Part shown: piece by piece, positions 2,671 through 48,073 of the stretch
Numbering within the stretch: the stretch's first letter is position 1
Layout of the letters: every line of letters begins with the position of its first letter
NCBI GenBank assembly: GCA_037043015.1
Contig: CM073330.1
Location: 4,365,263 to 4,429,262, forward strand
Reading direction: 5' to 3'
DNA length: 64,000 nucleotides
DNA from: Bryum argenteum
Lineage: Eukaryota > Streptophyta > Bryopsida > Bryales > Bryaceae
Program-made: the position numbers and the translations under genes
The notes under the pieces: model-generated
The model's input: only the letters and a program-made list of their open reading frames with translations
Database searches by the model: none
Told to the model about the DNA's origin: nothing

Positions 2671-2881
2671 ACTTCATTACTTTAAAAATACCCGGTAGGT
2701 GGAAGAAGGAGCAAAGGGGGGATCCAAGGAAAGAGAGAAATGAAGTTTCCGTATTTCCTCTCTTATTCAAGATTGCCCCACTACAAACCAATTCCCCCCT
2801 CTATTTCAAAGTCGAGCTACCACGTCCCAAAAAAAATGATATTCTTAAAATGTGTGCTATTTTTCTCCAATCCCACCTTCT
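2671..2881. other. Spacer between two tandem arrays
   Basis: About 210 bp without repeat structure. A short open frame (2667-2948 plus) runs across it but has no recognisable domain and enters the 129-bp satellite, so I do not call it a gene. Confidence 0.5.
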
Positions 2882-3937
2882 ATTATGTTTAATTCATTCT
2901 TCTTCCCAATGCTATATTACAAATAAATTTATCATCCTAATGGTTTAATCATATATTTGATTTTACGATCACAATTTATATTAGGACTAAAGAATGTACT
3001 GGTGGGTGATATTATGTTTAATTCATTCTTCTTCCCAATGCTATATTACAAATAAATTTATCATCCTAATGGTTTAATCATATATTTGATTTTACGTTCA
3101 CAATTTATATTAGGACTAAAGAATGTACTGGTGGGTGGTATTATGTTTATTTCATTCTTCTTCCTAATACTATATTACAAATAAATTTATCATCCTAATG
3201 GTTTAATCATATATTTGATTTTACGATCACAATTTATATTAAGACTAAAGAATGTACTGGTGGGTGGTATTATGTTTATTTCATTCTTCTTCCCAAGGCT
3301 ATATTACAAATAAATTTATCATCCTAATGGTTTAATCATATATTTGATTTTACGTTCACAATTTATATTAAGACTAAAGAATGTACTGGTGGGTGGTATT
3401 ATGTTTATTTCATTCTTCTTCCCAATACTATATTACAAATAAATTTATCATCCTAATGGTTTAATCATATATTTGATTTTACGATCACAATTTATATTAG
3501 GACTAAAGAATGTACTGGTGGGTGGTATTATGTTTATTTCATTCTTCTTCCTAATACTATATTACAAATAAATTTATCATCCTAATGGTTTAATCATATA
3601 TTTGATTTTACGATCACAATTTATATTAGGACTAAAGAATGTACTAGTGCGTGGTATTATGTTTATTTCATTCTTCTTCCCAATACTATATTACAAATAA
3701 ATTTATCATCCTAATGGTTTAATCATATATTTGATTTTACGATCACAATTTATATTAGGACTAAAGAATGTACTAGTGGGTGGTATTATGTTTATTTCAT
3801 TCTTCTTCTCAATACTATATTACAAATAAATTTATCATCCTAATGGTTTAATCATATATTTGATTTTACGATCACAATTTATATTAGGACTAAAGAATGT
3901 ACTGGTGGGTGGTATTATGTTTAATTCATTCTTCTTC
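2882..3937. repeat. 129-bp satellite, eight units plus a partial ninth
   Basis: ATTATGTTTA(A/T)TTCATTC recurs at 2882, 3011, 3140, 3269, 3398, 3527, 3656, 3785 and 3914, always exactly 129 bp apart. Units differ by only a few substitutions and show no length change. The first, second and last copies carry TTTAATTC where the internal ones carry TTTATTTC. The ninth copy stops after about 24 bp, at 3937. Confidence 0.95.
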
Positions 3938-3989: not shown

Positions 3990-4500
3990 CAAAGACGTGT
4001 CCTTACTCCCTCTCCTATCCCACCTCCCACCTCCCACCCCCTTTCCTCCTCCCCTGCCCCCCCTCCCCCTACCCCCCCCATTTTCCCTCCCTCTACCCCC
4101 CTTATCCCTCCCTCTACCCCCCTATCCCTCCCTCTACCCCCCTATCCCTCCCCTCTACCCCCCTATCCCTCCCTCTACCCCCCTCTATCCCTCCCCTACC
4201 CCCCTATAACCTATCCATCCCCCTACCCCCCTTTCCCCTACCCCCTACCCCCTTATCCCTCCCTCTACCCCCTCTCCCCCACCCACCCGCCCCCTCCCCG
4301 CCCCTCCCTCCCCGCCCCTACCCCTCCCCCCCCCCCCCCCCCCCGCCCCTACCCCCTCCCCCTACCCCCTCCCCCCACCTACCCCCCCCCCCCCCCCCGC
4401 CTTACCCCCCCCCCCCCCCTACCCCGCCCCTACCCCCTCCCCGCCCCCCCCCCCCCCCGCCCCCCCCCCCCCGCCTCCCTCCCCCCCCCACCAATGTAAC
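3990..4500. repeat. Cytosine-rich low-complexity block
   Basis: The plus strand is almost purely C and T with short A insertions, built from CTACCCCC and TATCCCTCC motifs that degrade into long C runs. The proline-rich frame 3897-4499 (plus) is a by-product of composition. Its strand bias is opposite to that of the G-rich array at 1-2570. Confidence 0.9.
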
Positions 4501-4575
4501 CCGCCCCCTCAAAAGTTCACCCGCCCTCTCAAAAGTTCACTCGCCCTAACAAAAGTTCACTCGCCATGGCACGAT
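4501..4575. repeat. Short tandem repeat of an AAAAGTTCAC motif
   Basis: AAAAGTTCAC followed by CGCC recurs three times between about 4510 and 4565 with a period near 21-22 bp; a diverged fourth copy (GATTTCACCCGCC) follows. It links the C-rich block to the 3' end of the methyltransferase-like gene. Confidence 0.7.
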
Positions 4576-4671
4576 TTCACCCGCCCCGACGCCACGATGG
4601 ACTTACACGTCACATCCTACGTGGCTTTTTACTGCAAAGTTTCTTACCCATGAAAAAATTACACGCCCCCT

Positions 4672-5025
4672 TCAAACAAGGTGGGCGGGCACGCCCGTCC
4701 GTCCGGGACAACTCGTACGTCCGTTTTGTCCGCCCGATTGCCTCAACACGCCCGATATGACAACCTTGCTTGATTGTGACTGGCGAACGTAATCGTCCCG
4801 GTCCTCAGGGTAAAACGCTCCCGGCCTCAGACCTGCTATGACCTCGTAATTCACAAGCGGGTAGATCCTATCATCATACGAGTCAACCAGATCGCCGATC
4901 ATTAGATCCTTGTTCGGAAGAAAATATATCGGCCACATGGAAGGCCCCTCCGACACCGCCTTGAAGAACAAGGCTACATTCTTCTGCCAGTAAGTTTCAA
5001 TGCAGATTGTGTTCCTCTCCATCAT
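4672..5025 (-). CDS. Last exon of methyltransferase-like gene
   Basis: Terminal exon of the minus-strand split gene, 117 codons plus stop. It begins after a TGTATCAG acceptor (intron ends at 5026) and reads in phase 0 from the upstream exon that ends at 5168. Its first residues, MERNTICIETYWQKNV, match the Arg-Asn/Ile-x-Ile-Glu strand that follows motif I in C-terminally located SAM-binding sites of DNA methyltransferases; there the acidic residue contacts the cofactor. The rest (FFKAVSEG, then LMIGDLVDSYDDRIYPLV) is unfamiliar. The tail after about residue 90 is rich in Ser, Gly and Arg and runs into GC-rich DNA, so the true stop could lie elsewhere. Function is inferred from the combined exon pattern. 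Confidence 0.55.
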   Translation of the reverse strand: MMERNTICIETYWQKNVALFFKAVSEGPSMWPIYFLPNKDLMIGDLVDSYDDRIYPLVNYEVIAGLRPGAFYPEDRDDYVRQSQSSKVVISGVLRQSGGQNGRTSCPGRTGVPAHLV

Positions 5026-5167
5026 CTGATACACAACAATGCCACAACTAATTAGTAAGGTCGGAATACTTACGAACGCCCGTTCGTTAAATGCACTGAA
5101 CTATGATGTTTACGAACTGCCGTTCGTAAACAAGCACAAACAAAACCAGAATTAATCAGAAACTTAC
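5026..5167 (-). other. Intron of 142 bp carrying two palindromes
   Basis: On the minus strand the donor is CCGG/GTAAGT (first intron base 5167) and the acceptor is TGTATCAG (last intron base 5026). Both flanking exons are in phase 0. Copies of the 20-bp palindrome lie at 5070-5089 (TTACGAACGCCCGTTCGTTA) and 5110-5129 (TTACGAACTGCCGTTCGTAA). Together they fill more than a quarter of the intron. Confidence 0.75.
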
Positions 5168-5911
5168 CCGGCAAGCGCGCAGGGCTTTACTGCCGGCAAA
5201 TGCCAGAATGATGTTGTCATTCTTCTCCGTGTGGCGGGAAAGGAACCGCAAATAGGTCTCCATTCGCAATTCGTCACTGTAGACGAAGTCCTTGTGCTCG
5301 GCCCGATAGAAATCTTGCTTGTCGAACTGCTTCCCGATCAACGTCTCTTCAGCGATGTCATCGGAGAAGTAGCGCTCGTGGCCGTCGGGAAATGTGAACT
5401 TCTTCTCTTGGTACGTGATCGAATCGACCAGCGCTTTCTTTGCCTTCGCCATAGGCTCCCCCGGCATGTACCTGTACTGGACATGCTTACAACGGAACTC
5501 CGTGAAGAAGTTTGCATGAAGCATGTCCACGTAGCCCTGGCGGTCCACGGGGGCAATGATCATCCACACCTTGACGTTGGCGCAACCAATTTTCTCCGTT
5601 CTCTTCTTGATGTTGTCGATCATCATCTGCCAGCTGGTTGTAATCTCGGCAGCTGTCGACACCGGAGGGAAATGGCGGAGATCAAGAATGCCGGCGGTAA
5701 GTTTCTTCGTCCTGAATGGCCTGGTTACATTCTTGTCCAACAGACCAGCTGGGCCAAACTCTGCAGTCCCGTTCGACAGCCTGTTCTCCGTGGGCTTCCA
5801 CGCAATAAATACAGACCAGTTGCCCGAGCGGACAGCATCTGTTCGTAACTCGTTCACCAAGGCTTGGTCGATTCTCTTCCGGCATTGCTTGGGAGGAAAC
5901 TCTGGGGTCTT
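5168..5911 (-). CDS. Internal exon, DNA methyltransferase-like core
   Basis: Minus-strand exon of about 240 codons; the frame is open up to a TGA near 5942-5944 and the exact 5' splice position is unresolved (AG candidates near 5908-5912). The 3' donor at 5167/5168 is a clear GTAAGT. Visible landmarks are GILDLRHFPPVS (possible place of a D/N-P-P-Y motif IV, but not canonical), VKVWMIIAPVDRQGYVDM, and near the end a stretch leading into NIILAFAGSKALRACR. The last resembles motif I (FxGSG) of beta-type, motif-IV-before-motif-I N4/N6 methyltransferases, and it continues across the intron with ERNTICIE. The second glycine of the classic FxGxG is replaced (FAGSK). I infer a DNA methyltransferase fold; activity is uncertain. 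Confidence 0.55.
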
Positions 5912-5944
5912 CTTGTTGACCGCAATGGTATTATGAGCAATTCA

Positions 5945-7246
5945 ACCCGTAGGAAGAAAAGCCCTAGAGTTGGGCCGGTTGAGAGTGGAGACACCTACCT
6001 AGCCCTTCCAAGCAATGGACTCTAAATCCTAACAAGCATTCACAAACACCATGCATCCACCATCACACGATCATCAAGACACGAGATGCAATAAACATCA
6101 CAAGAAAACCAATGGGGGAAGAAGAAGTACAATTGGGGTCCAACCTCAGCTGGACCCTTGGCCACTAAAATGGCCGTATCTCCCTCGTCCTTGCTCTTCT
6201 TGAGGCAAGCTAGGAGTCTACAGAGAGCTAGCTTGATGATGTACTTGAATCCGGAAGCACGTCTCGTGGTTCTTCCTAAAACTTGAGTTATGCGGCCTCA
6301 AAGTCAGGCCTTCAATTTGCCCTCCACAGTAGACATGCTTTCACTTAATCGATCACCATTCCTCCGTCCATGATCCAAAAAGAGGAAGCCTAGGCTCTTT
6401 GGAAAGCTGGCTTCAAGGCGCTCCTCTCCTCCAAAGGGCTTGCTCAGATTTGTCTCCTACCGATAGAAATCGTTCTTCAAGTCAGCGCCGCCTCTTCTCG
6501 CCGTCCGCCGCAAGCCGGTGAAGTCCTCTTGGGAGATCCGCCATAGCTCCCCGTCGCTGCTCCTATGACCGCGCGCTTGGGCTCGTTGGAAAGCTGGCTT
6601 CAAGACGCTCCTTTCCTCCAAAGGGCTTGCTCAAACTCGTCTCCAGCCAAACGCTACACCTTCCCAAAGTTGGCAGATCCAGATCTTGGTCGGGAAATCC
6701 ACTCTCCTATCTTCTACCCTAACCTACCCACACTCACACCCACATCCAACAACTCCACACATTCTACTTGTGTGTTTTCTCCATCTTAGATCACTAACTC
6801 CATTCTCCATAGCCACAACCTAGAAGCATCTCAAAACCACACACATACACCAAAAAACAAGAGAGACAAAACTAGCAAACCCTAGCAAAAAGAGAGAGAC
6901 AAGTAAAAGAAATGAGAAAGAAAGAAAAGATAAAGGGGAGAGGGGAAGCATGAGGGAGAAATCCTACTCCCTCACCTTCCTTCTTACCTTTCTACTTTCT
7001 AAATTGCCTATCTACCTCTAACTCTAATACTACCTCACATCAAATATTCTTCAATTCTAACAATTTAGTTATCCTCCCTAACATAAAATCATGTAATTGT
7101 CACTAAATTGCCATACTCAATGCTTTTCTTAATTATTCTAATAACTTCCGAGCCTATTTCTATAAATTCAAATTTAATGCATTTAGCCTATAGGAACCAC
7201 ACAAACTACTATAATCAAATGTATTTTGTATCTAGATATTCAATAA
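5945..7246. other. 1.3-kb non-coding segment splitting the gene
   Basis: No coding potential and no palindromes. It contains a diverged internal direct duplication: GGAAAGCTGGCTTCAAG followed by the 15-mer TCCAAAGGGCTTGCT occurs near 6399 and 6584, about 185 bp apart. A purine-rich stretch lies at 6862-6960. The composition (CCCTAG, CACAAACACC, GAGAGAGAC) is unlike the adjoining introns. It may be a long intron or an insertion of an unidentified element; I found no terminal repeats or target duplication. Confidence 0.5.
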
Positions 7247-7876
7247 CTAATACGTGAGCCATTTGTATGGCTCACAGGTATCCTTGATGAAGCTATCCAT
7301 CCCCTCACTGAAGTAGATTGCTTGCATGATGCAAGAAGAAAACATAGTCTTCTTCTTCCATTCCTTCCAAGCTCCGGAATTCACCTGCTGGTTGTCGTCG
7401 AAGAAGGGATTACGATCCTTCTCCACGTACGCAATTCGATCCCCAATGGCCTTGAGGATGACGTCCTTCCACTTCCTCCGCTCGCAGTGCTTGTCCAATG
7501 AAAGAGCCCGAGTCCAAGTCCGGGGGGCCTTTCCAAGATAAATACGCGGGGGGTTCGCGAGGATGTAGTCCGCAGCTTCCTCAACTTGAGCCGTCGTTAA
7601 GCTCGCGAGTCCACAGAGGGATGTTCCGGAGATGAGACTCAGGTTCGTCAGCTCCTTAAAGTTCGCTGAATGCTTCATCTCTTTCCCAGTATCGAGGTCG
7701 ATCAAATGACCAGACTCGAAGTTCTTGAGGACTTTCTCCCATTTCTCCCACACGTCATCGGGTGCCATAATTATCTGGCGTTCACCTCTCTTCTCCCACT
7801 CGACAGTAATCGGTCGATTGGGATTCTCCTGTTTGATGGTGTGGCTCAAGGATTGGATTGCTCTCTCGCGGAAAGC
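7247..7876 (-). CDS. Exon 2 of the ParB-like gene, unknown domain
   Basis: It follows the 431-bp intron in phase 0: acceptor TTTTTTGTGTGTAG, first exon base 7876, coding AFRERAIQSL onward. It is open for 209 codons to a TAG at 7247. The protein is hydrophilic and mostly helical in appearance, with VWEKWEKVLKNFESG, a small Ser/Leu/Thr-rich segment and DRNPFFDDNQQVNSG near the end; I recognise no domain. The reading may end here or splice onward to the methyltransferase-like exon through a GT inside the last codons; no candidate donor and acceptor pair gave a clean phase match. It could therefore be the 3' end of a ParB-only gene. Confidence 0.55.
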   Translation of the reverse strand, partial: AFRERAIQSLSHTIKQENPNRPITVEWEKRGERQIIMAPDDVWEKWEKVLKNFESGHLIDLDTGKEMKHSANFKELTNLSLISGTSLCGLASLTTAQVEEAADYILANPPRIYLGKAPRTWTRALSLDKHCERRKWKDVILKAIGDRIAYVEKDRNPFFDDNQQVNSGAWKEWKKKTMFSSCIMQAIYFSEGMDSFIKDTCEPYKWLTY

Positions 7877-8307
7877 CTACACACAAAAAAGTACAGCAGT
7901 TAGAAATTATACGCACGGCCGTTCGTAAACTACAGCTCTGCGTGCTGTAATGTGAAAGTCTCTTGACTTTGCTACTCTAATATGAAGCTGTCCTAAGTTT
8001 ACGAACTGCAGTTCGTAAACTGCATGATATTTGATCTTGTTTGATTTTACGAACTGCAGTTCGTAAAACCACTAGTATTCTATCCTGCTTATTTGAAGTG
8101 ATGAATGCTTCACTAAAGACGTTCAGCGGTTAGATGTTCGGATACAACTGTTCGATAACTTCTTGCTGTGCATTTTTAAATCTCATATGCATCCCTATAG
8201 TTGTTCTACAAGACTATCAAGAAAAAGACCAAAGTTTACGAACTGCAGTTCGTAAATTATCTCTTACATGCAATCCGGCTTGTACTGAAAAATATGGTTG
8301 TACTTAC
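7877..8307 (-). other. Intron of 431 bp carrying four palindromes
   Basis: On the minus strand the donor GAG/GTAAGT starts at 8307 and the acceptor GTGTGTAG ends at 7877; both sides are phase 0. Palindrome copies lie at 7909-7928 (degenerate), 7999-8018, 8047-8066 and 8236-8255. The last three are perfect 20-mers, TTACGAACTGCAGTTCGTAA. Short open frames in this interval are not supported as genes. Confidence 0.85.
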
Positions 8308-10152
8308 CTCGTATTTCTGTTTTAGGACCGGATCCACCTTGTCATCCTCCACGGCCTCTTTCTTCTTTCGGGTCACGGCATTCTTCCTCACAAGTGGGGG
8401 TTTCCCCTCTTGCTCATACAGCACGCGACAGTGCAGAATAGCCCGGAGAAGTGACGTCAGGTGCCTCGCCTCGTTCTGGCCCTCGTTGCACTTGAAAGAT
8501 AGGGCGTGCAAGTGGTGCACCTTGTCCGTCCAGACGACCTGCACGTCCCAAACCTTCAGCTCTTCCACTCGGTGGCAGCTTCTACGCATGGTCTCGTCTC
8601 CGAGGATGGACTTCGCGGCATGCCAAGTGTGTTGCCCGTTGATGATCTTGAAAGTTCCGGCTTTGACACATTCCATCCAGTCCGTTGGCCTCGTCGAAAG
8701 ATTCGGCATCACCGTCAGAATTGGCTTCGTGTAGTTGTGCACGAGCAGGCTGCGCTTGATCTCCTCAGCGCCAGAGGCTTCGTAGTCGCGATAAATCTTC
8801 CCAGATCGGTGATCACTGGGCTCCATGTGTCCGATGGCGAGCTCGAACAGCTGGTCGCGACCAAATATATACATGTAATCCGAGTCTTTGATGAATTTCT
8901 CATTGAGCTCGGCCTTCCTGCGTAGCAGGACATCCTTGTCTTCATTCTTCGGATGTCCCGTCGTGGATACTTGGGTCTCCAGGTGATACGGGATCTCCAA
9001 GGTTGCATCAAATGGTCTTGCCGCCGGATAGGAAGACCAAGTGTCCACAGTAAGCAACGTGACCTTCGCTGGCTTCGCCTGCGGAAGGTTGATGATGTTG
9101 CGGATGTCGTCTACGCGTCCGGATGGTGCAGCGCCCTGGATGGGGCTAAGCCCGGTCTCTGTCGGCGCAGCGGCAAGGATTGCGCCAGTGATGCTTCGAA
9201 CCGGAGAACTCAGTCCGGAACTGCGGGTGCTTCGCGTCGATTGTATTCTCTCCGTTTGGACTGCAGCCTCCGAATCTGGAGAAATTCCGCCATGCACAGA
9301 TGCGGATGCACCTGCTTCTTCGCGACCAACTTGTTCTCCTCTGCTGCTTTGAGCTCCGGTGCTCTCCGCGACATGGGTTACTTGCCGAGGTCTCTCCGCT
9401 TGACTACCACGTGCAGATTCGGCTGTACTTTGACGAACCCCTGTTGTTGGTGCAGGAACGTCGCTTTGGGTCGCCACTGCTGACCTTGGTGCCCTTCGTG
9501 CTCGTTCTGCATCCGGCTTCTTTGTCTGCTTCGGGGGTTTCGCCTCTGTCTTCGCTTTCGGTCTGCCCATGGTGATCGGCTCTGACTCGCTCCTGGGTTT
9601 AGCTGCAGATGCAGACTTCTTCAGTCGACATGCAACAAGGCCTTCTATTTGCTTCATCAAGCGGGTCCAAACATTTGCTACATCGTACGATCCATGTTGA
9701 TACGAAAGCCAAGGTCCTAGGTTGTTGAATATAAGCATCTTCCATGGTTCCTCTAGTCTAGCTGTTTCGTTCAAGCAGTATTGAATATCGAACGGATGGT
9801 TGTCATCTAGACGTATAATAAGTTTACCAATCATTGTATTTGACACCAATGTAAGTATCATTACGCCCGGGGAACTATTTAAACCATGTACTGAAATACC
9901 ACGGAACGCCTTCCAGCGGTACTGGTTATTGGCCATGGGTTTTCCCACAGCCAGTTTGAAAATCACATTGTGATCCATGGTTGTTGCCTCCGGGGCTATG
10001 GACCACGCAGAATTGCTAACCCCGTTAAGGGTTACTGCAGTCTCCGAGTCCAGTACTTCACTTCTTTCCCATTCAGTAAGATCTGGCGATTGTACTTCTG
10101 TGATGTAGGGTGACAAATTCGACGTCTGCGACATGAACCTATTATCGTCCAT
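8308..10152 (-). CDS. First exon: ParB-like domain protein
   Basis: A 615-codon open exon with ATG at 10152 and a strong donor at 8307. Residues 1 to about 170 form a globular part of unknown type. Residues about 170 to 330 are a basic, Ser/Ala/Arg-rich, probably disordered linker with a PKAKTEAKPPKQTKKP stretch that could be a nuclear localisation signal. Residues about 340 to 590 contain YMYIFGRDQLFELAIGHM, then FKIINGQHTWHAAKSI near residue 502. This resembles the nucleotide-binding turn of ParB/sulfiredoxin-fold proteins (usually G-x-H-R or G-E-R-R), but the expected arginine is Thr here. A following ALSFKCNEGQNEARHLTSLL resembles the conserved ParB Asn/Arg helix. In phages and plasmids such domains are often joined to DNA methyltransferases, as may be the case here. 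Palindromes precede the start codon by 75 to 1112 bp. Confidence 0.65.
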
Positions 10153-10227
10153 CCCTGAGATTTCAGACAGGTAGGAATTGTAAGCGGTCCGATATCACCA
10201 CAAGGTATGTCACTTGCATATCATGGT

Positions 10228-10951
10228 TCACGGGCGCCCGTTCGTAGTTTCCTACATTGACTCACTGATGTACTGCTATCAGTCTAAGAGGTGTGATGAG
10301 ATTAATATTTATCCCATCAAACAGGGATCAATTTTACGAACTGCCGTTCGTAAGATTACGATCTCGAGACGTGGCTGACTCGACCTTTCACCATACGAAC
10401 GGCCGTTCGTAAGTGCCTAGTACTGCGAACTAAGTGGCGTCGTTTGACGAACGCCATTTCAAGTACGCTGATTTGTAAGTTACTGAGGTTACTTCTCAGC
10501 TTACGAACGGCCGTTCGTAAGATACAGATGACTAACAGCTATGACTAAGAGTTGACCTAAATCCCAAAGTAGCACGCGACCGAATTTTACGAACGGCCGT
10601 TCGAAAGTATTTTAGGTTACCATCTCGAATTTTACGAACGGCCGTTCGTAACTTTCTGACTACCTAACTACCTGAAACAACTTATACGTTAGGTTGCCTA
10701 ATCTCTATCATGTTTACAACTTGAAAGTGTTCAGCAGAAATGAAAAAAAATTCATGTACATATTTAGATTAGATTTATTTTTAGCTACCAAAAGTATTTT
10801 TGTTTTCCATGACTATTGTATTAAGGACCTCCACTATTTTTCGTTTTAGCTTATTCATCATATTGGGCAATTTTAACGACTCTGGGGTTCGAACTGTTGA
10901 CCTATCTCCCAACCTACCTAGCGACCTCATTTTACGAACGGCCGTTCGTAA
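10228..10951. promoter_or_regulatory. Palindrome cluster upstream of the ParB-like gene
   Basis: Seven copies of the 20-bp palindrome within 725 bp of the start codon's upstream side, plus partial sites near 10444 and 10981: 10228-10247 (degenerate), 10334-10353, 10393-10412, 10501-10520, 10587-10606, 10632-10651 and 10932-10951. Those at 10501, 10632 and 10932 are perfect TTACGAACGGCCGTTCGTAA. Spacing is irregular. The position suggests binding sites for a dimeric DNA-binding protein acting on this promoter; that role is inference. Confidence 0.7.
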
Positions 10952-11055
10952 ATTTCTGAGGTATCAGACAAGCACATTCTGAACGTTCGTTCGTTTTCAA
11001 GTTAGAATTCAGAATTTCATTCCCAGGAATTGGCCCAATTGTTTTTTTGTACTGT

Positions 11056-11264
11056 CCCCTTAAGAACTTACGAACGGCCGTTCGTTTTTTTTTTACAGTC
11101 CCCTTAAGAACTTACGAACGGCCGTTCGTTTTTTTTATTACATTCCCCTTGAGAACTTACGAACGGCCGTTCGTTTTTTTTAAAGTCCCCTTAAGAACTT
11201 ACGAACGGCCGTTCGTTTATTTAATGTAAACTCTGATTCAGAACTTACGAACGGCCGTTCGTAA
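11056..11264. repeat. Tandem 42-46 bp repeat, each with one palindrome
   Basis: Four tandem copies of a unit reading CCCCTTAAGAAC (CCCCTTGAGAAC in the third), the palindrome TTACGAACGGCCGTTCGT and a T-run, with palindromes at 11068, 11112, 11157 and 11199. A fifth perfect site at 11245-11264 lacks the CCCCTTAAG leader. The short frame 11047-11229 is a repeat by-product. Confidence 0.9.
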
Positions 11265-12599
11265 ACTCTGAAACACGTGCTAACGTGTCAACAGTTCCAA
11301 AGGCCTTTTGCAACTATTCTAACATGTCTGAAAAAAACTGTGAACAAAAAACAATGCTATTCAAATCAAAACACACATTGACAATCAAAACACACATTCT
11401 CAAAGACAATGATTCCTTTTTGTACCTTAGGTGATATGTGATCCGCTTCCAAAAACAGTTAACGATCACCTGCAAAACACGCACACAAGTTCATCAGATT
11501 CATCTCCAAACATAAGCATACTTCAATGTTCTTCTACAAACGTGCAATGTAAAACCTCAAATGCAATGCAAACTAAAACTTGCTGGATTCTACAAAACTA
11601 AATAACATCACAAAATAAACTGCAATACACAAAACTGTGCAATTGTGCAGTACACAAAACTATGCAATTGTGCAGTACACAAAACTGTGCACATAATTAT
11701 ACAGAATTAGACACTAGCAATCCAAGTATTGAGGAATTCTACAGAAATAGGAAAAGCAGGGGACAGAGCTCTTCACCTCGAAATTTTTTCGAGGCAGCGA
11801 TGACCTTGCTGCAGCGTCAACCACAGAGCTCTAAAAAGTGTAAAAACATCGACCTCCTTGGCGATGACCTCCTCGTCGAGGACCTCCTCGCAAATGACCT
11901 CCTCGTCGAGGACCTCCTCGATGCAGCGTCAACGGCAGGGGTCCGGAAAACAGAAAAGCAGGACAAATGTGACGGCTATGGCGCGCAAACTTCTCAGGAA
12001 ATGCAGTTCTGCAGATGGAGCGTAGAGCGACACACACAGAAATGCGAGAATCAGACACAGAAATGCGAGAATCAGACACAGACACACAGAGCGACACACA
12101 CAGAAATGCGCGAATCACAGAAACAAACCACGCAAACAAACGGCGTGAATCAGACAGAAATGGCGAGAATCTCACAGAAAAGGCCGTGCGAGCTGCGGTG
12201 CCAGCGAAGGCGCGAGCTGCAATGCGAGCGCAGTCGCGACCTGGTGTGCGAGTGAACGCGCGAGCTGCGGCGCCAAAGAAATCGACAACAAATGTGCGAA
12301 AAACAGAAAAAACAAAAGAGCGAAGACAGCGCGCGAATCGAGGCGAAAAAATGAGAATGAGCAGAGGCGAGGAGGGTGGCGCAGGGAGGAGGACGGGCAG
12401 CCGCCAAAACGCGGCATTGATGTCGAGTCATCATGTCATATCCGTGCGGGCCCATCATCACTTTTCATCATTGCACGGTGATAGGCCCTGAAGCGCTCGG
12501 TCATGGGGCCTCGACCAATTTCATTATAAATTTTAAAAGAACAATTCGCGGTCATAGACTCATAGGCCCTGCGCAATGGTTTTTTTTTTTAAATTAAAA
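11265..12599. other. Non-coding spacer with several short repeats
   Basis: From 11265 to 11620 the sequence is A/C-rich with CAAAACACACATT repeated. At about 11628-11695 a 25-bp unit (TACACAAAACTGTGCAATTGTGCAG) occurs about three times. At 11850-11925 GACCTCCTCGTCGAGG repeats. At 12025-12120 ACACAGAAATGCGAGAATCAG repeats, and 12180-12300 has GCGCGAGCTGC repeats. Open frames 11662-12255 and 12015-12491 follow these repeats and are not convincing proteins. 12300-12470 is GC-richer and 12540-12599 returns to A/T runs. Confidence 0.6.
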
Positions 12600-13850
12600 A
12601 TTCAATTGCTTTTTGGGCAATTTAAGTATACTATATAATAAAAAAAATTTAAAAAATATTCAAAGTTTAGAACTAGCATATTGAAATATAGTATTTAAGA
12701 AGTGAAATTAGAATTCACAAAAATTTATTCGCAATTTTTTTATCTATAACATATTTAAAAAAAACGAAAAGTTTAAAACTAGCATATTATAATTTAATAT
12801 TCAAGAAGTGAAATTAGAATTCAAAAAAAAAAAAATTGCAATTTTTTTATTTATAACATATTTAAAAAAAACTAAAAGTTTAGAACTAGCATATTTTAAT
12901 TTAGTATTCAAGAAGTGAACTTAGAAATCACAAAAATTTGTTCGCAATTACTTTATTTTTATAACATATTTAAAAAGAACTAAAAGTTTAGAACTAGCAT
13001 ATGTTAATTTCGTATTGAAGAAGTGAAATTATAATTCAAAAATATATTTTTGCATTTTTTTAATTTATAACATATTTTTAAAAAATTCAAAGTTTAGAAC
13101 TACCATATTTTAATTTAGTATTCAAGAAGTCAAATTAGAATTCACAATAATTTATTCGCAATTTTTTTATTTATAACATATTTCAAAAAAACTAAAAGTC
13201 TAGAACTAGCATAATTTAACTTGGTATTGAAGAAGTAAAATTAGAATTCACAAATATTTATTGGGAAGTTTTTTATTTATAACATATTTAAAATAAACTA
13301 AAAGCTTAGAGCTAGCATATTTTAGTTTAGTATTAAACAAGTCAAATTAGATTTCACCAAAAAAACTTTCGCAATTTTATTATTTATAACATATTTTTAA
13401 AAAACTAAAAGTTTAGAACTAGGATATTTTAATTTAGTATTCAAGAAGTGAACTTAGAATTCACGAAATAAAATTTTCAATTTTTTTATGTATAACATAT
13501 TTTTTAAAAACTAAAAGTTTAGAACTAGGATATTTTAATTTAGTATTCAAGAAGTGAACTTAGAATTCACGAAATAAAATTTTCAATTTTTTTATGTATA
13601 GCATATTTTTTAAAAACTAAAAGTTTAGAACTAGCATATTTTAATTTAGTATTCAAGAAGTGAAATTAGAATTCACAAATATTTATTCGCAATTCTTTTA
13701 TTTATAACAGTTTTAAAAAAAACTAAAAGTTTAGAACTAGCATATTTTAATTTAGTTTTCAAGAAGTGAAATTAGAATTCGCAATTTTTATATTTATAAC
13801 TTATTTTAAAAAAACTACAAGTTTAGAACTAGCATATTCATTCTTCTGTT
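12600..13850. repeat. AT-rich satellite, about twelve 106-107 bp units
   Basis: The motif GTTTAGAACTAGCATAT and close variants recurs at about 12665, 12771, 12878, 12986, 13092, 13198, 13304, 13411, 13517, 13623, 13729 and 13821. Each unit also contains GAAGTGAAATTAGAATTCAC and TTTATAACATATTT. Copies are clearly diverged, except that the two neighbours around 13411-13620 are almost identical. Confidence 0.9.
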
Positions 13851-16560
13851 ATTTAGAACAAATTAGAGACGAAATTAGATTATTCGCTAATAATATGTTA
13901 AGGACATGGAATGAAAGGAGAATAAGAACTCAAACTTAAATAAACTAGGATTAACAAAAGAAGGGAACACAAACAACGCGAACAAAGAAGACTCAGTTAG
14001 AATATCAAGATATGAGTTAAGACTCTTATATATACCACCAGATACGAAGCTACTACCGAGACTTCTTAAGCGACTTCTGAGACTTGTTCAGAGACTTTCG
14101 AGCCTTTTTTAGCGTCTTCCAAGGTAGGAATTACGGTTTAAGGTTTTGTTTTTAGTCGTTTAGGGGTTTGGTTCTACGGTATGTGGTAAAATATCCTAAA
14201 ATATCTCAATATTGCAACCTTCGTGAAGATATTTTTGGTTTCAAGCCCAGAACAAACAACTATTATTAGTTCTTAAATGAAACTACAAACAAGAAGTTGA
14301 ATTTAAAGATTGCGTTACAAAAGGAGATGCAATGAACTTAAAGATTTGCTAATAATTTGTGAACTTACATTTTGAAATCATAATTCACATAAACTTATTT
14401 CAACTTTGTTCTTTTGAACGTAGACTGAACCAAATTTGAGTTCACGGAAAAAAAAAAATTCTTAGTTACCTTAAATGTGGGTTTGGGTAGGAATTAGGGT
14501 TTAAGATTTTTGTGTTTGTTGTTTAGGGTTGAGTATTTACGGGTTTGGCTCTAGGGTATGTGGTAAAATATCCTAAGCCATATCTCAATAATGCAACATT
14601 AATGAAGGTATTTTTGGTTTGAAGTCCTAATTAAGCAACTATTATTAGACGCCATGAATTGGCCAATCCTTATGATTTTGGCAGCTTGAAATAATGTATA
14701 TAGCACAACTGAAAACAATGCCATGTAGATAATTGCATTGAAATCAACATGCCTTGAGTGGACGAAAATAAAGTATTAATATATTTTCCCATCTTAAAAC
14801 TTTTTTGTATTTTTTCACTCTACTTATTTCAATACTGTGCGGCCAAATATAAAAGGGATGGGGCCAACTTAACGAATATGGCGTATAACTTCTTAAATGA
14901 AACTAGAATAAATAGTTGAATTTAAAGATGGCCATACAATCAGAGGTTGATTTTACTTCAAAAGTCGCTAATATTATGTACAGGTACATTTTTAAATCAT
15001 ATTTCACATAATCTTATTCCCAATTCTATTAGTGATAACATATACAAAACCAAATTAGAAAAAATTTGCAATACATGGTAAATTACATTTCGTAAATGTT
15101 TTCTCCACGCTGTACACTCAAAATCACTTCATAACACATGATTCAAATGATTCTGAAGGTATTAAATGATGTTCATGTAAAAGTATGTCAAAATTTGAGT
15201 TCATGATAATATTTCTTTTATATTTACCTTACATGTGGTTTACGGTAGGGATTAGGACTTAGGGTTTTCGTTTGAGTCGTTTAGGGTTTAGGGTTTACGG
15301 GTTTCGCTCTATGCTATGTATTAAAATGCCCTAAGCAATATATCAATTATGCAACACTTGTACCGATATATTGGGTTTCAAGCCCTAAACAAGCAACTAT
15401 TATTCGTTCTTAAATTAAAGGACGAAAAACAAGTTGGACTTAAAGACTGCGATACAAACCGAGGTAGTTTTTAACTAGAGAATTTGTTAGTTATATGTGA
15501 AGAAACGCATCAAAATTATAATTCACATGAATTCTTTCTCACTTTTGTTATTTTAAACATATACACAACCAAATATGTAAAAGTATATTAAAAATTGACT
15601 TCACGATACAATATCTTTTACATTTAATATTAATGTGGTCTAGAGTAGAGATTCGGGTGTAAGGGTTTGGTTCTAGTCGTGTAGGGTTTAGGATTTACGG
15701 GCTTCGCTCTTGGGTATTTGGTAAAATATCCTAAGCAGAATCTCAATAATGCAACTTCAGTGAAGATATGATTGGTTTGGAGCCCAATACAATCAACTAT
15801 TATCCGTTCTTAAATAAAACTTGAAAAAAAAGTTGAATATAAAGATTGTCATACAAAACAAGGTAGATTTTAATCTAAATTTCCTAATTATAAATTAAGG
15901 TACGTTTTGAAATCCTAATTCACATAAATTTATTCCTAATTCTATTCTTTAGAACAGATACACAACCAAATAAGAACAAATTTGCAACACATGCTAAATT
16001 ACATATCGTAAATGTTATCTCGAGGCCATCCACTCAAAATGACTATTTTGCACAAGATTCACATGTTTGTGAAGGTATGTCAAAATTAAAGTTCAGGATA
16101 CAATTTGTTTTAGATCGATCATAAATGAGGATTAGGGGAGAGACTAGTAAGGGTTTACGGTTTTGGCCCTCGTTGTTTAGGGATTAGGGTGTACGGGTTT
16201 GGCTCTAGGATATGTGGTAAAATGTCCTAAGCAATATCTCAATCATGCATCTGTCGTAAAGATATGGTAGGGTTGAAGCCCAAAAACAAGCAAGTATTAT
16301 ATGTTCTTAAATTAAACTAGGAAAAAAGTTGAATTTAAGATTGCCATACAAACCGAGGTAGAAATAACTTTTAAATTTCCTAATTATATGTGAAGGTAGG
16401 TTTTAAAATTACAATTGACATAAATATATTCCCAATATTGTTATTTAGGAAAATCATATACAATACCAAATTTCAACAAATTTGCAACACATGCTAAAAT
16501 AAGAATTTTTTTTAGATATTGTACTTCAATGTTCAATAACAATTGAATAAATCAAGTAAC
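13851..16560. repeat. Long-period diverged tandem repeat, 380-530 bp
   Basis: GTATGTGGTAAAATATCC-like sequence recurs near 14179, 14556, 15316, 15715 and 16210, and TTCTTAAATGAAACTA-like sequence near 14267, 14890, 15411, 15807 and 16302. Each unit also has GTTTAGGGTTTA(GGG)TTTACGGG, a partly telomere-like motif. One interval is longer because a 230-bp mobile element sits at 14651-14883. No coding frame is present. Confidence 0.75.
14651..14883. mobile_element. MITE copy B, interrupting the long-period repeat
   Basis: It ends with CCAACTTAACGAATATGGCG on the right and begins with CGCCATGAATTGGCCAATCC on the left. Its interior (GTATATAGCACAACTGAAAA, ATGCCATGTAGATAATT, GTGCGGCCAAATATAAA) matches the better-preserved copy at 33214-33456. 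The left inverted repeat has lost about 8 bp. Neighbouring repeat units without the insertion read ACTATTATTAGTTCTTAAAT, which gives an empty-site comparison. Confidence 0.75.
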
Positions 16561-17190
16561 ACTTAACGAGCTTAATAAATATACCACAACAAATATTCTA
16601 TTTCGGTGTATTTCCAAATATGTGGATCTTCGCCATACCAAAATCTAGTTTTTTGCACACATTTCTGGTAGATGTACCTAAAACCAGTAGCACCGCCACT
16701 ATCAACACGTAGGTCCCCCAAGAACCGCACCTAGCCTAAACTAGAATTGTTAGAACACTCAATTTAAATTGACCTATCAAAATAGTAAAGAAGCTATTGA
16801 TTTTGGGTCGAATCATGAATGAAAATTTATAACAGCTAAGGTGGTGTTTGCGTAATTACCACAGAGGTTGATTACGGGTCCTCCACTACTTTAGTGTTTG
16901 AAGATTTGTAATAATTCGTGTGTTTCACAAAAAAATATGAAAAAGTTGTAAACCTTCTTAAAAAGTATCTTGATACCCAAAAAATAATACCCATTATAAA
17001 TAGACCAGCTATAAATGGGCGAATTTCCTTATGTTGGTGGTTATGAGTACAAATACCATATTTAACCCGTTGTATGTGGGGGCCGAACAATAATTTATGG
17101 CCGGATTGAATGCCGCGCGCGGCTCATCATTGCGGGCAGGTCAATGAAAGTTTATATTCGGGTAGGGCAGCCTCCTCCAAAATTCGGGGG
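16561..17190. other. AT-rich spacer upstream of a TATA-like promoter
   Basis: No convincing coding frame. From 17085 the sequence becomes GC-richer (GCCGCGCGCGGC at about 17111 is a 12-bp palindrome) and leads into the TATA-like motif at 17192. Confidence 0.5.
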
Positions 17191-17191
17191 G

Positions 17192-17199
17192 TATATAAA
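17192..17199 (+). promoter_or_regulatory. TATA-box-like motif
   Basis: TATATAAA sits in GGGGGTATATAAAGGCCCGCCCC. GC-rich flanks around an isolated TATA motif fit a core promoter firing to the right, towards the palindrome array and the DUF7869-like gene. No transcript evidence is available. Confidence 0.45.
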
Positions 17200-17289
17200 G
17201 GCCCGCCCCTCACAATGAGCTCCCATTTCATGAGTTTTTTTCCGCTCACTTCGTCGTTCTCTCTTGGAGGGTTGAGGTTAGCATTTTCG

Positions 17290-17387
17290 TGACGTCATCA
17301 CTTTAATGACGTCATTATGATTAGCTGTCAGTGTCAGGTTACTTTGCTGACGTGTCAGTGTCAGACTGTCGTCAGCAGCTGACGTCA
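17290..17387. promoter_or_regulatory. Cluster of TGACGTCA (bZIP/CRE-type) sites
   Basis: Three exact TGACGTCA octamers at 17290-17297, 17307-17314 and 17380-17387, plus TGACGTGTCA near 17347. TGACGTCA is the classic palindromic target of plant TGA/bZIP factors. The cluster lies between the TATA motif and the 22-bp palindrome array, which suggests regulatory DNA. Confidence 0.5.
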
Positions 17388-17394
17388 TCTCGAC

Positions 17395-17613
17395 TTACGA
17401 ACTGCCGTTCGTAAGTTGACGAACTGCAGTTCGTAAACTTACGAACTGCAGTTCGTATAACTTACGAACTGCAGTTCGCTAACTTTCGATCTGCAGTTCG
17501 TTAACTTACGAGTTACAGATGGTTAACTTACGAACTGTAGTTCGTAAACTTACAAACTGCAGTTCGTATACTTACGAACTGTAGTTTGTTAAATTAAGAT
17601 CTGGAGTTCGTCT
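17395..17613. repeat. 22-bp-period array of about ten palindromes
   Basis: Sites start at 17395, 17417, 17439, 17462, 17484, 17505, 17528, 17550, 17572 and 17594. Most read TTACGAACTGCAGTTCGTAA or a close variant; those at 17505 and 17594 are strongly degraded. The period is 22 bp, about two helical turns, so all centres face the same side of the DNA. Further single sites follow at 17700-17719 and 17973-17992. Confidence 0.9.
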
Positions 17614-18364
17614 TTTTTATATGAAGGGGTCCGCAAATACTGTGTCACGTCACACTGTAACAGCACACTTACATTTCAATGTAACCGACAGTTCACTATA
17701 TACGAACTACCGTTCGTAAAGTATAGCACGCTTGAAATGCAACATTAGTTTTCACTTCTCTGTTAAGTGTTGAAGTGCTTTTGCTCCGAATTTCAAATCC
17801 TTGCGGAGTAGCAGTTGCCGCGTGTAGCAGTAGTAAAAGTTTTACGACCTCTCCTTTGTAATCACAATTTGAATGTTGTCACGCATCTTTCTGATACTAG
17901 AGGGAGCTTCGCTGTGTTGATGGCCGGTATAAATTTTACCTCAATCATTGTGGAGGCCAAATCAATTTGGATTTACGAACTGTAGTTCGCTAATTGCAGC
18001 TTTGAGGTTGAGGCGATCAATATGAAATTATGGGTATAGGTCAAGTTGGTGGATGATCGATGGAGTTTTTCTTTCGCGATGCACTGGACGCAATGCATTG
18101 ATTGTGAATGCATGTCCGCTTCCTATGATAACGAACTTCTGATCTGTGCTTCGTACCGCCTGCATCAATTTTTGTGTCGTCCGAGCACCTTCAATATTTG
18201 CATCCTTAGCGGTCCGCACATGCAGTAGTGTTGAATTTAGATTGAGTAGGAGAGCGTTGGTCTGGATGCGATTACGTGCAGGATAGCGTGGGTGATTTAT
18301 ATCACGAATAACTAATGGAAGCAGAGGCATTGTTGTGTGTTGTGTAGGTCCTGGTGTTCAAGTT
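17614..18364. other. 5' region of the DUF7869-like gene with two palindromes
   Basis: It holds palindrome sites at 17700-17719 (ATACGAACTACCGTTCGTAA) and 17973-17992 (TTACGAACTGTAGTTCGCTA). A 100-codon minus-strand frame (18028-18330) and a 60-codon plus-strand frame (18046-18228) overlap. The minus one has a fairly protein-like composition (ARTTQKLMQAVRSTDQKFVI) but no recognisable domain, so I leave it uncalled. Confidence 0.45.
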
Positions 18365-21300
18365 ATGGAATCTGCTTCAGTATGGGAGGATGAGGAGTTG
18401 AACGGGTCTGGCCCTTGCATCGCAGATGATGTGAGCGAATGGGTACGCTCTTAATATCTTCAATTCCTTTCTCCTTATAGTATATACTACTCATCGGATT
18501 CAACTAAGTAGGAACTGATTTGGTAGGAATAAGAAAGCTTTATCAACTAGCATGTATAAATGATTGAACTTAATAACAAGATTGGGTGAACCGAAAGTTT
18601 TCCCGTTTCAAAGGTTTTATAATGTTAGTACATGGTGTGTGTTAGCCGCAATGATCTATACGTTGATCAGAATGGTGCGATATACTGAGACAGTCACGTA
18701 AATTGTCGTGTATAGGGTACTGCATCAACCGCAGATGTGGGACAAGATGATCTCAATGTGGAGGATGTTATTGATAATTCTCCCATCCCTGATTGTGATG
18801 GTATTAGTAGGGATGAGTGGAAGGGTCTAATGGTAGAGGTCAGACAAAGAACGGGCGAAAATTTGCCGATGTCCTTGTTTCTGCTACAAATCCCATCTTG
18901 TCTGTGGATGGTGAGAATGAACTAGGTAACATGAACTTTGGCGTTGTGGTGTGTGCAATATTTGATGGGGACTCGGCACTCCGCAACATGTGTATCTGTT
19001 GGCCCATTCGGTCTCTATTTCTAAAGAGTGTGAGTGTTTACGACCATCTTAGAAAGCACGCTTATATCGTCTGCGAGGATGAGATGAGAAAGTTCGACCG
19101 TAAAGGAAAGCGCCGCTATGACACCACTAATAGGGCGTACAAAACTAAGAAAACACAAGATTGGAGGATATCTGAAGACGAGATCGCTAAGGTGTACATG
19201 GGAGAATGTTGCGACCGTCATTGCATTAGAATGTTCCCTCCGAGTATAATCCGAGTGGCACGTCAAGAAATGTTCTTAAGGGATACTGAAGAGAGACGTT
19301 CGAAGAACCTCGACATTCATCGTCAAAGTTTCGTTCGATTGATGGTAATGAGGATCTTGTGATGTTTCAATTCAAAGAAGTGTGTGAAAGGTTGGAAGCT
19401 CATCCATGGAGTATCGAATAGGACATTCGGTATGAGAAACAGGCTAAAGAGGGGGCGAGCACGTCTGCATGGCAATATGGGGAAATCTAAACCGAGGGCA
19501 TCTACGGCACATGCGGCTTTTGTTTTGGAGAGTATGATCATGAACCTTGCTGACCAAATGCCTTATCCATGTACATTACCATCCGGTCAACGTGTTGCGC
19601 AAAAGATTCTTCCAACTGGAATACGATGGAATCAATTTCTTCCCCGAGTGAATGAGGTTTGCATTACTTGCATGTTTCAAATGAGTACATTAGTCAAATA
19701 CTTTGCAAATCAACCCTCGATTTTTTATTGACTCTATAAGTGCAAAATTGTTTGTAGGTGAATACGGAATTCGGACTCAAACCTATCTCAGCAACTCTTC
19801 TAAGTCGAATACGCGTATCAAGATTTGCTGAGTATCGGATCAAGCGAAGGGGAGACTCATTCTCAAGATGTTCCAAGTGCGATACATATAACACGTTGAA
19901 ACAATCAGCAGTACCCGGATCGGAAGAACACAAAGAGTATGCGTTGAAGTACACCAAACATACAAATGCTCAAACGGCGGCCCGTGTTGCATATTGGTCG
20001 GATCGAACACATTCAAGAAAAAAAACATTGGAATTTGTGAGCATTTTGCACGATAAGATGGACCACTCCAAAACTGCACTTCCATGTCTTCGATCTCGGA
20101 CAAAAGATTTGGATGCCCTGATGAAGCTACCCATTTCAGTGATGGGCATGTATGCTCATGGACATGGGGATTCAAGGTATGCTCACTATACAGTGGATAT
20201 GTTTCCTAATGATAGTAACTTCACAATTGGGTATGTTGCCAAATTGTTGCGTGATATAAAAACACGCCAACACATCGTCGAGCATTATTTCCACAAAGTG
20301 AAAGCACCGCATTGTATAGAGCCATTCTGCAGGGAAAGAAATGTGTTTAGCATCTCTCAAGGAACCAAATCGAGAGTTCCAGAGTAGCACGACCGCTTGC
20401 ACCGGTATTGCATATCCAATTGGATAATTGTTGGAGGAGAACAAAAATAGATACTCTTTTTGTTTTTGGTCGTTGATAGTGGCGAAGAGGATTGTGAGAG
20501 AAGTGGTAGTATCATTCATGATGGTGGGACATACGCATGAAGACATCGATGCTTCATTTGGGAGGTGGAGTGCGGTTTTGAAAGAGAAGAATCATCCAAC
20601 ACTTCCCATGCTAATGAAATCTTACATGGATCTAGACAAGGATGGCCCCATGATTCCACACCTTATTGAGGAAGTTCCAGTTTTTCAAGTTCATTGCTCC
20701 ATACATGGCAAAGGCTCGAAAGGACGAGGCTAAAAGGCCATAGCAAGGAAGTCAATTCGATTCTTTATCCATGAGGACGGATGGCCTTTGATGCAATACA
20801 AATTAGCATGTACGGAAGAAAAATGGAAACCAACACATTCAGCTGGGATCAAATTGTGGAAGGCTGACGAAAGAGGTAGGCCTATATTACCTCCTGAGGA
20901 TGCTCAGCCGTTTGCTGTGAAATCAAAAGGATTGAAGCATGAAGATGAGATACTGAAGGGTATTGATGGATTCATTGCACATTACAATATGCTGCTGAAT
21001 GCGAACGTGACGCCCGCTTTCAGAGGAGAGCATTCTCATTACGTGGAGTACTGGACAGGGGTACGAGATGCAATTAGGTCAATGACAAGTGTTGCAGGAA
21101 TCGAAGGTGATGTGCCGTTGAAATGTGGATTTTGGCCGACAAGCCGACTTTGCATAGACGATGTACAATCAGTAAATCGAATAGCAGAAGGACACGAAGC
21201 GGAGGTGGTCTTTGGAGAGGACGACGTGGAGGAAGAAGAAGACCATTATATTGGAACAATAGATGACAGACCACCGCCGTCTTTCACTACAGGACGAGAC

Positions 21301-21666
21301 ATTTTGAAGGGATTCTTGGTTTTTGTAATACCAGCAGAAGGTTGCGAGGAACTAATATGGCTAGGGAAGGTTATGAACCAACCACAAATGGACCCAACGC
21401 AACCAAATTTCAAGACATTCAAAGTGCGTTGGTGGGTGCCAGACAACAATGACAACCCTATTGCGGAGTTGTACCGAGGATGGGATACAGTTCACGAATT
21501 TCCATACAAGTTAGATATTTCAACAAAAACGGAAGATACGATATCTACAGATAGCGTTGTTGCTTCTTGGAGGCCTCTGAAAGGCAGGATACAATTTGCC
21601 CCGGCATCGCAAATCCAATTTGCTCTTGACAATCTACGTCGCATCATAGAGTTTGAAGAATCCTAG
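18365..21666 (+). pseudogene. Decayed DUF7869-like (transposase-like) gene
   Basis: Probable first exon 18365-18442 (26 codons), intron 18443-18715, then coding sequence whose frame changes near 18817-18925, 19340-19384 and 20430, so it is a relic. A clean 101-bp intron lies at 19657-19757 (GAG/GTTTGC to TTTGTAG). Landmarks in order: cysteine-containing GECCDRHCIRMFPPSIIR near 19202; GWKLIHGVSNRTFGMRNRLK near 19390; KMDHSKTALPCL near 20060; SVMGMYAHGHGDSRYAHY near 20140; LHIQLDNC at about 20408, split by a frameshift from ENKNRYSFCFWSL; and VGHTHEDIDASFGRWS near 20524. The last three fit the family I know as DUF7869, where spaced acidic residues may form a nuclease-like site (inference). An in-frame TAA at 20731 separates it from 20788-21666 (292 codons), which has an acidic patch (GEDDVEEEEDHY) and an ordered C-terminal domain. 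Confidence 0.6.
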
Positions 21667-22119: not shown

Positions 22120-22215
22120 TTGAGACCCCCTCTATGTTACACTTTACTCTATTTATTTGAATAGTGTGCGGCCAAATATAACGGGGATTGGGCCAATTTA
22201 ACGAATATGGTGTTA
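22120..22215. mobile_element. Partial MITE copy C (right end only)
   Basis: GTGTGCGGCCAAATATAACG followed by GGGATTGGGCCAATTTAACG and AATATGG matches the right ends of the copies at 14651-14883 and 33214-33456. The left part is missing. Confidence 0.6.
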
Positions 22216-22234
22216 ATAGTTAAATAGAGGAAAT

Positions 22235-22370
22235 AAAAGCCCTTATAACGGCCTACCCGGGTAATGACCGGGTAGGGTTAGCTTAACTAGGTAATGACCG
22301 GGTAGGGTTAGCTTAAGGATACTCCCGGTTAACGGCCTACCCGGGAGTATCCTTAAGCTTAGTGGGCAGG
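22235..22370. repeat. Direct repeat followed by a 19-bp-arm hairpin
   Basis: GTAATGACCGGGTAGGGTTA plus GCTTAA occurs at 22261-22286 and again at 22291-22316 (period 30). Immediately after, AGCTTAAGGATACTCCCGG (22310-22328) pairs with CCGGGAGTATCCTTAAGCT (22341-22359) across a 12-bp loop. It marks the left border of the GC-richer segment. Confidence 0.85.
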
Positions 22371-33213: not shown

Positions 33214-33456
33214 AACGCCATATTCGTTAAATTGGTCAATCCCTATTATTTTGGCCGCTTGAAATAGTGTATATAGCACAAATGAAAACAATGCCATGTA
33301 GATAATTACATTAAAATCAACATGCATTGAGAGGACTAAAATAAATTATTAATATATTTTCCCATCTTAAGACTTTTTTGTTTCACTTTACTCAATTTTT
33401 TGAATAGTGTGCGGCTAAATATAAAGGGGATTGGGCCAATTTAACAAATATGGGGT
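33214..33456. mobile_element. MITE copy A with TCATG target duplication
   Basis: Left end AACGCCATATTCGTTAAATT, right end AATTTAACAAATATGGGGTT (inverted repeats with few mismatches). TCATG flanks both sides (33209-33213 and 33457-33461). The unrelated copy of the host sequence at 24763-24785 reads CCAATCTCATGGGTTAGAGA without an insertion, which confirms the borders. Confidence 0.85.
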
Positions 33457-33479
33457 TCATGGCTTGGAGACATTAATTA

Positions 33480-46425: not shown

Positions 46426-46611
46426 CTAGCTCAACTCATGTAGGAGCCGCATTCCAGCGACTTGTACAAGTAGACGATGAGTGTGGGCTGGAAGGGCCTT
46501 CGTAAGAAGATCAGCAATATTGTGAGTGGATTCGATCTTCTGCACTTGGATTTGTCCACTCATCACCAAATCATGAGTGTAGCTAAAGATCTGCGGATCA
46601 ATGTGCTTCAC
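46426..46611 (-). pseudogene. C-terminal end of copia RNase H
   Basis: It reads KHIDPQIFSYTHDLVMSGQI and then NIADLLTKALP, the typical end of copia RNase H. It is displaced by one frame from the main RT frame, which stops at 46608, so a single-base loss disconnects it. Confidence 0.85.
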
Positions 46612-47954: not shown

Positions 47955-48073
47955 AGAAGCATACTCATGCTGAAGAGCTTCAAGCCAGCGGAGTGAGTCA
48001 GGTCTGGCCTTTGCTTCTTCTAATGTAAGGGGGTCAGTAGCTTCTTCTAAGCTAGATACAAAAGAACAAGAAA

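Follow-up and report, generated by a model that had tools for sequence, protein, structure and literature searches.

Palindrome arrays and a ParB-like accessory gene in a large DNA transposon of the moss Bryum argenteum

Why should a stretch of moss DNA hold some thirty copies of a 20-bp palindrome around a gene that resembles bacterial parB? The stretch is a 64,000-nucleotide window of the Bryum argenteum genome (GenBank assembly GCA_037043015.1, 258.8 Mb in 25 contigs; contig CM073330.1, here C10:4365263-4429262). The original prediction, made from the letters of the window, compared the arrangement with ParB and its parS sites, while allowing that the palindromes could equally be operator, transposase or methylation sites. 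Our analysis places them in a large DNA transposon with terminal inverted repeats (TIRs) and two divergent genes, one for a ParB-like protein with a methyltransferase-like part and one for a DUF7869 protein. It suggests that the palindromes are likely to be cis-acting sites at which the ParB-like accessory protein encoded by the element binds.

Palindromic sites in the window and across the genome

Sites were scored as two 8-bp arms with a free centre, TTACGAAC....GTTCGTAA, counting mismatches in the arms, against the reversed window and ten Markov shuffles; the whole 20-mer TTACGAACGGCCGTTCGTAA was scored against 100 dinucleotide shuffles. At up to three arm mismatches the window contains 28 sites, all between 5070 and 17992, against none in the reversed window and 0-1 in the shuffles. 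The 20-mer at up to three mismatches gives 22 matches spanning 5070-17719, and none of its shuffles gives any. The palindrome set is thus real. At up to four arm mismatches there are 33 sites (1-5 in shuffles, 7 in the reversed window), and at five, 52 matches (11-25 in shuffles, 40 in the reversed window). Among the roughly thirty copies first proposed, the weak sites at 10228, 17594 and 17506 are individually indistinguishable from chance: the first two because four-mismatch scoring also yields matches in the controls, while the third surfaces only at five arm mismatches. The seven perfect palindromes (7999, 8047, 8236, 10501, 10632, 10932 and 11245) are as predicted, and TRF recovers the proposed ten-site array from 17395 as ten 22-bp units at 17393-17611. 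Central tetranucleotides among the 28 sites are most often GGCC (11/28) or TGCA (8/28).

The sites are not placed evenly. Of the 33 found at up to four arm mismatches, 13 are upstream of the ParB-like gene, another 12 are on the side of the DUF7869 gene, four fall in intron 1 and two in intron 2, one is in the middle and one is outside the element (26738); at this threshold exons 1 and 2 of the window's ParB-like gene contain none.

The palindromes had been described as confined to this locus. Inside the window this holds, with no site outside 5000-18000 at up to three arm mismatches, but genome-wide it does not: exact TTACGAACKGCMGTTCGTAA sites number 301 (reversed control, 0) and mark copies of one large transposon. 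These counts rule out both a locus-confined set and a mere tandem repeat. The free-centre pattern occurs 400 times (reversed control, 1), and among 50 listed sites 47 have a ParB-like match no more than 15 kb away, the association that the prediction had proposed to look for. Of the other three, one is at 15.1 kb and two are at C2:22.06 Mb, inside another element copy as judged by DNA matches and terminal repeats. The listed sites fall on C1-C4, and loci from C1-C11 also hold sites.

The limits of the element are supported by comparison among copies. Homology continues through the DUF7869 gene, and 33 of 42 other matches end at window 22207-22237 (query 2018-2048), mostly at 22214, beyond which the flanks are unrelated in six copies compared by eye. 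The terminal repeat AACACCATATTCGTTAAATTGG recurs inverted at the opposite end; paired ends enclose ParB-like copies at 25,523 bp (C2), 26,351 bp (C9) and 27,977 bp (C5), and four further pairs are 31-40 kb apart. Short derivatives are also present, with eleven end pairs of about 240-245 bp among the rows listed.

A genome search with the 133-aa ParB region gave at least 144 matches at E ≤1e-5, with 150 of 591 candidates scored. Of these, 21 are full-length at 95-100% identity, including three that have an internal stop; among the matches listed there are also diverged groups at about 54-82%, 40-46% and 25-38%. The listed 25-31% relatives lie mostly on the largest contig, C1 (44 Mb), a concentration that is either genuine or produced by the limited number of candidates scored. 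Pairing of the two genes was assessed with 55 DUF7869 rows (54 at ≥72% identity plus one partial match at 92%). Among 66 ParB-like places at ≥38% identity, 38 have a DUF7869 match within 45 kb, divergent in 38/38, whereas 500 random placements average 1.4 and never exceed 7; by ParB group the pairing is 19/24, 8/14 and 11/28. A looser set, adding seven DUF7869 rows picked by eye, pairs 45 of 86 places, 41 of them divergently. The DUF7869 protein is likely the element's transposase.

The ParB-like protein and its candidate sites across lineages

Sequence-only searches (Pfam, NCBIfam and PDB profiles) give the ParB-like gene no significant family name. PHROGs returns weak ParB-like matches in two families (E 0.013 and 0.027), and the PDB profile search a cytochrome chain, 9l08 (E 6e-5, over 28 profile positions, with no single stretch passing). 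A structure model, however, predicts a ParB/Srx fold for residues 434-561 of exon 1, with the plasmid repressor KorB as best Foldseek match. This model, the clustering of sites with the gene family and the occurrence of lineage-own motifs at equivalent places all bear out the proposed link between palindromes and a ParB-like gene. A parS-type partition role, in contrast, did not survive, given an accessory gene of a TIR transposon with a DUF7869 partner. The CTP-binding motif of ParB is GERRxRA; here the corresponding position reads II[ND]GQH...AA, and the arginines are absent in 9/9 aligned rows. A Pfam scan of 10 window open reading frames (ORFs), all outside the left part of the element, found no ParA.

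By fold, exon 2 weakly matches the beta-class N6-adenine DNA methyltransferases MboIIA and CcrM (E 0.011-0.015, probability 0.95-0.98), with no match at E 0.001. Its motifs include FAGSKALRACR, and D-L-R-H-F-P where DPPY, methyltransferase motif IV, would be expected. Catalysis is doubtful, because the DPPY position reads D-[LF]-R in all ten of the 11 aligned rows that cover it and, in two families, K replaces a glycine of motif I.

Related motifs occupy similar places in other copies. Counted at a looser threshold than the window sites, intron 1 holds 3-8 sites in 19 of 20 other main-family loci (L017-L036) and one in L030. In three comparisons of the main copy with relatives at 58-73% identity, the sites in the intron can be aligned and the remaining intron sequence scarcely can; the 58-68% relatives carry the motif TTACGAACTYRAGTTCGTAA, and the 73% relatives GGGC and GGCC centres. 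The motif of the 42-46% group, TGGGCGGCCGYTCAGA, is only partly symmetric and has the central GGCC in common with the main motif. It has 87 genome matches, 45 on the forward and 42 on the reverse strand, against 0 in the reversed control. Of the 87, 13 lie 65-209 bp past the ParB domain, 25 upstream of that domain, 15 at 2.7-3.7 kb upstream of a DUF7869 match, 7 on the 3' side within 6.5 kb and 19 elsewhere within 40 kb; for the other 8, that distance includes no typed gene. In the 30% family the motif is ATTTAGCTCGASTCGAGCTAAAT, with 1741 genome sites (control, 0). The C6 copy has a long array of it upstream of the gene; 2/2 members read have a single site in the matching intron, and 3/3 members listed (first 2.65 Mb of C1) carry 4-5 sites 1.3-2.3 kb upstream.

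Across 17 loci tested, motifs M1 and M4 never occur in other families, and the related M2 and M3 overlap only with each other; the distant families are represented by few loci (C21, C10, C1 and C6 copies, one or two each). In these loci, motif and protein lineage change together.

Three observations on individual copies may be added. Some listed ATTTAGCTCGASTCGAGCTAAAT clusters on C1 form pairs spaced by 6-9 kb, as would suit a pair of divergent promoters. L077 with L074 (C6:18150500-18154200) is a member of this high-copy relative with a long ATTTAGCTCGASTCGAGCTAAAT array. The left part of the C4 copy (L070:1-3063) contains two copies of a unit of about 1 kb, each with one degenerate palindrome.

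The window copy and its surroundings

The window copy is damaged, by a repeat insertion on the left, an insert in exon 2 and a broken DUF7869 frame (Table 1); its longest DUF7869 open frame is 101 aa, against up to 638 aa in copies ≥96% identical. The 1345-bp insert is missing from other copies whose loci cover the place, and is a younger nested mobile element with a 5-bp target duplication. The copy's further left part matches C10:4359393-4361933, outside the window.

Table 1. Features of the element copy, in window coordinates
Feature	Position	Strand	Basis or detail
End of unrelated inserted repeat	4499..4768	.	98-100% identical elsewhere
ParB-like gene, exon 3 start	4769..5025	-	truncated by inserted repeat
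Inferred intron 2	5026-5167	-	GT..AG read from letters
Two palindromes (5070, 5110) in intron 2	5070..5129	.	mismatch scans
Exon 2, second part	5168..5931	-	beta-class DNA methyltransferase-like region
Nested insertion, 1345 bp, splitting exon 2	5932..7276	.	GGTAT each side (5927-5931, 7277-7281)
Exon 2, first part	7277..7876	-	
Inferred intron 1	7877-8307	-	GTAAGT...TGTAG
Four palindromes (7909, 7999, 8047, 8236) in intron 1	7909..8255	.	mismatch scans
Exon 1, 615 aa	8308..10152	-	ParB/Srx-fold part about 8470-8853
13-palindrome array upstream of ParB-like gene	10228..11264	.	mismatch scans (≤4 arm mismatches), TRF
44-bp tandem repeat within upstream array	11042-11262		TRF
Ten 22-bp palindrome units, DUF7869-gene side	17393..17613	.	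TRF, arm scoring; weakest 17506, 17594
Palindrome ATACGAACTACCGTTCGTAA	17700..17719	.	mismatch scans
Degenerate palindrome, last at locus	17973..17992	.	arm scoring
DUF7869 gene, candidate transposase	18817..21666	+	frame broken in window copy
Right TIR AACACCATATTCGTTAAATTGG	22193..22214	-	element end at 22214

Other features lie within or beside this copy. A 106-bp tandem repeat of about 11 copies (12647-13784) sits mid-element and is partly common to other copies, and 14640-14887 is probably a diverged, older copy of the short derivative (right end 14864-14885, left end set by eye). To the left of the element lies a 129-bp tandem repeat (2881-3937, 8 copies, 97% matches). At 33214-33457 a 244-bp derivative carries the terminal repeats of the large element, and 46608-49144 holds minus-strand fragments of a Copia-type retrotransposon polyprotein (ORFs judged by eye). 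Genome-wide, the LEAFY SAM domain gives five matches over the cut-off (C5, C9, C10 and C3), the best at E 1.1e-28, in keeping with a streptophyte host, and four much weaker; this is more copies than is usual in mosses or liverworts.

Candidate roles of the sites

Binding of the palindromes by the ParB-like protein would probably involve a dimer on the two 8-bp half sites of the dyad. Less certainly, arrays occupied by the protein at the two promoters and within introns might keep the element's genes transcribable or regulated, in a form of anti-silencing; the methyltransferase-like domain may mark or read DNA locally; and shifts in the protein-site pair could confine each lineage's action to its own copies. 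In the VANDAL transposons of Arabidopsis, VANC has DUF1985/DUF287 domains and a short, non-palindromic motif, YAGTATTAC; VANC21 motifs occur within VANC21 and VANB21 introns as well as upstream of VANA21, with tandem expansion and subfamily differences (PMC5735166). VANC removes silencing marks (PMC5735166, PMC10398659), and anti-silencing is therefore favoured here. The moss element similarly has motif arrays within introns of its accessory gene and upstream of the candidate transposase gene; they have expanded in tandem, and the motif differs between related elements. On this analogy the sites probably act in self-regulation or anti-silencing, and among the uses that the original prediction had entertained an operator-type use fits them best. 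It differs from the VANDAL case in that its protein has a ParB fold, which VANC lacks, and in its palindromic motif. The partner transposase of VANDAL elements is of the Mutator type; the scanned window ORFs and joined exons gave no Pfam match to DUF1985/DUF287 or a Mutator transposase.

The same site anatomy is fitted by autorepression, in which the palindromes would be operators through which the ParB-like protein limits copy number as KorB does, and not anti-silencing sites. The sites upstream of both genes suit this, as does KorB as the best structural match; but several sites are intronic, away from promoters, and the expansion of tandem arrays exceeds what simple operators need. We regard it as rather unlikely.

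A methylation role is possible too, and the palindromes could be targets at which the methyltransferase-like domain marks its own element with 6mA or 4mC. Exon 2 has its weak fold matches to N6-adenine enzymes, and for a ParB plus methyltransferase protein of an Ectocarpus transposon modification of its own sequence has been proposed (PMC12477816). The altered motif IV and motif I positions described above nonetheless count against this reading. Methyltransferases of this type normally have shorter targets, for which 20 bp is long, and self-marking as the function of the sites appears unlikely.

The palindromes might instead be recognised by the DUF7869 transposase. In En/Spm and Ac, subterminal repeats assemble the transposition complex; here DUF7869 belongs to the same element and is diverging too, arrays lie upstream of its gene, and the left part of the C4 copy has two degenerate sites (L070 near 500 and 1466). 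Yet the right end (22214) lies 4.2 kb beyond the last site on that side, which downgrades subterminal transposase sites, and most sites are intronic or upstream of one or other gene, so that this reading becomes less likely. Lineages that are 72-78% identical in an 83-aa DUF7869 segment, moreover, already differ in motif. All told, transposase recognition seems improbable. A role in RNA, as intron hairpins feeding small-RNA or splicing control, is most improbable: an 8-bp stem per site is possible in transcripts and six window sites are intronic, but upstream of both genes there are many sites that the inferred transcripts do not include, and the perfect sites have a centre (GGCC, TGCA) that is a dyad too.

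Returning to binding by the ParB-like protein, the element resembles bacterial ParB-parS, Noc and KorB in its modelled ParB/Srx fold and in having palindromic sites near its own gene; it departs from them in its transposon setting, in the missing CTP-motif arginines and in the lack of ParA among the scanned ORFs. Closer parallels come from algae. Sola1-1 of Ectocarpus encodes a 1104-aa ParB-like and methyltransferase protein on the strand opposite its transposase, so the protein class is already known in transposons; its authors, citing work on green and red algae, propose that proteins of this kind may bind their own element and modify it epigenetically (PMC12477816, which cites Iyer 2011 and Petroll 2025). 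Like Sola1-1, the moss element is a large DNA transposon with a ParB-like domain, a methyltransferase-like region and opposite gene strands. Unlike it, the element resides in a streptophyte, has a DUF7869 partner and a non-canonical methyltransferase motif IV, and bears lineage-specific palindrome arrays, of which the excerpts on Sola1-1 make no mention (PMC12477816). For Sola2 a 4-bp target site duplication is described (PMC3627910); the comparison available here is a single case, the 244-bp derivative, with 4-bp CATG on each flank.

The open-access literature yielded no report of cognate site arrays or motif-protein co-divergence for such proteins, and no treatment of DUF7869; as excerpted, the proposal of self-binding and modification names no sites (PMC12477816). 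With candidate cognate sites for no fewer than three lineages of a single genome, the locus makes that proposal testable by simple binding assays and long-read methylation data. Tentatively, the element may represent a second, independently evolved system of sequence-specific self-recognition among plant-type transposons, in which a ParB-fold protein carrying a methyltransferase-derived domain would bind lineage-specific palindrome arrays at its own promoters and introns and counter host silencing, with specificities splitting as the family diversifies. If true, it would be a convergent counterpart of VANC, and its lineages would offer a natural set of diverged protein-site pairs whose targets are long, distinct, and symmetric or nearly so.

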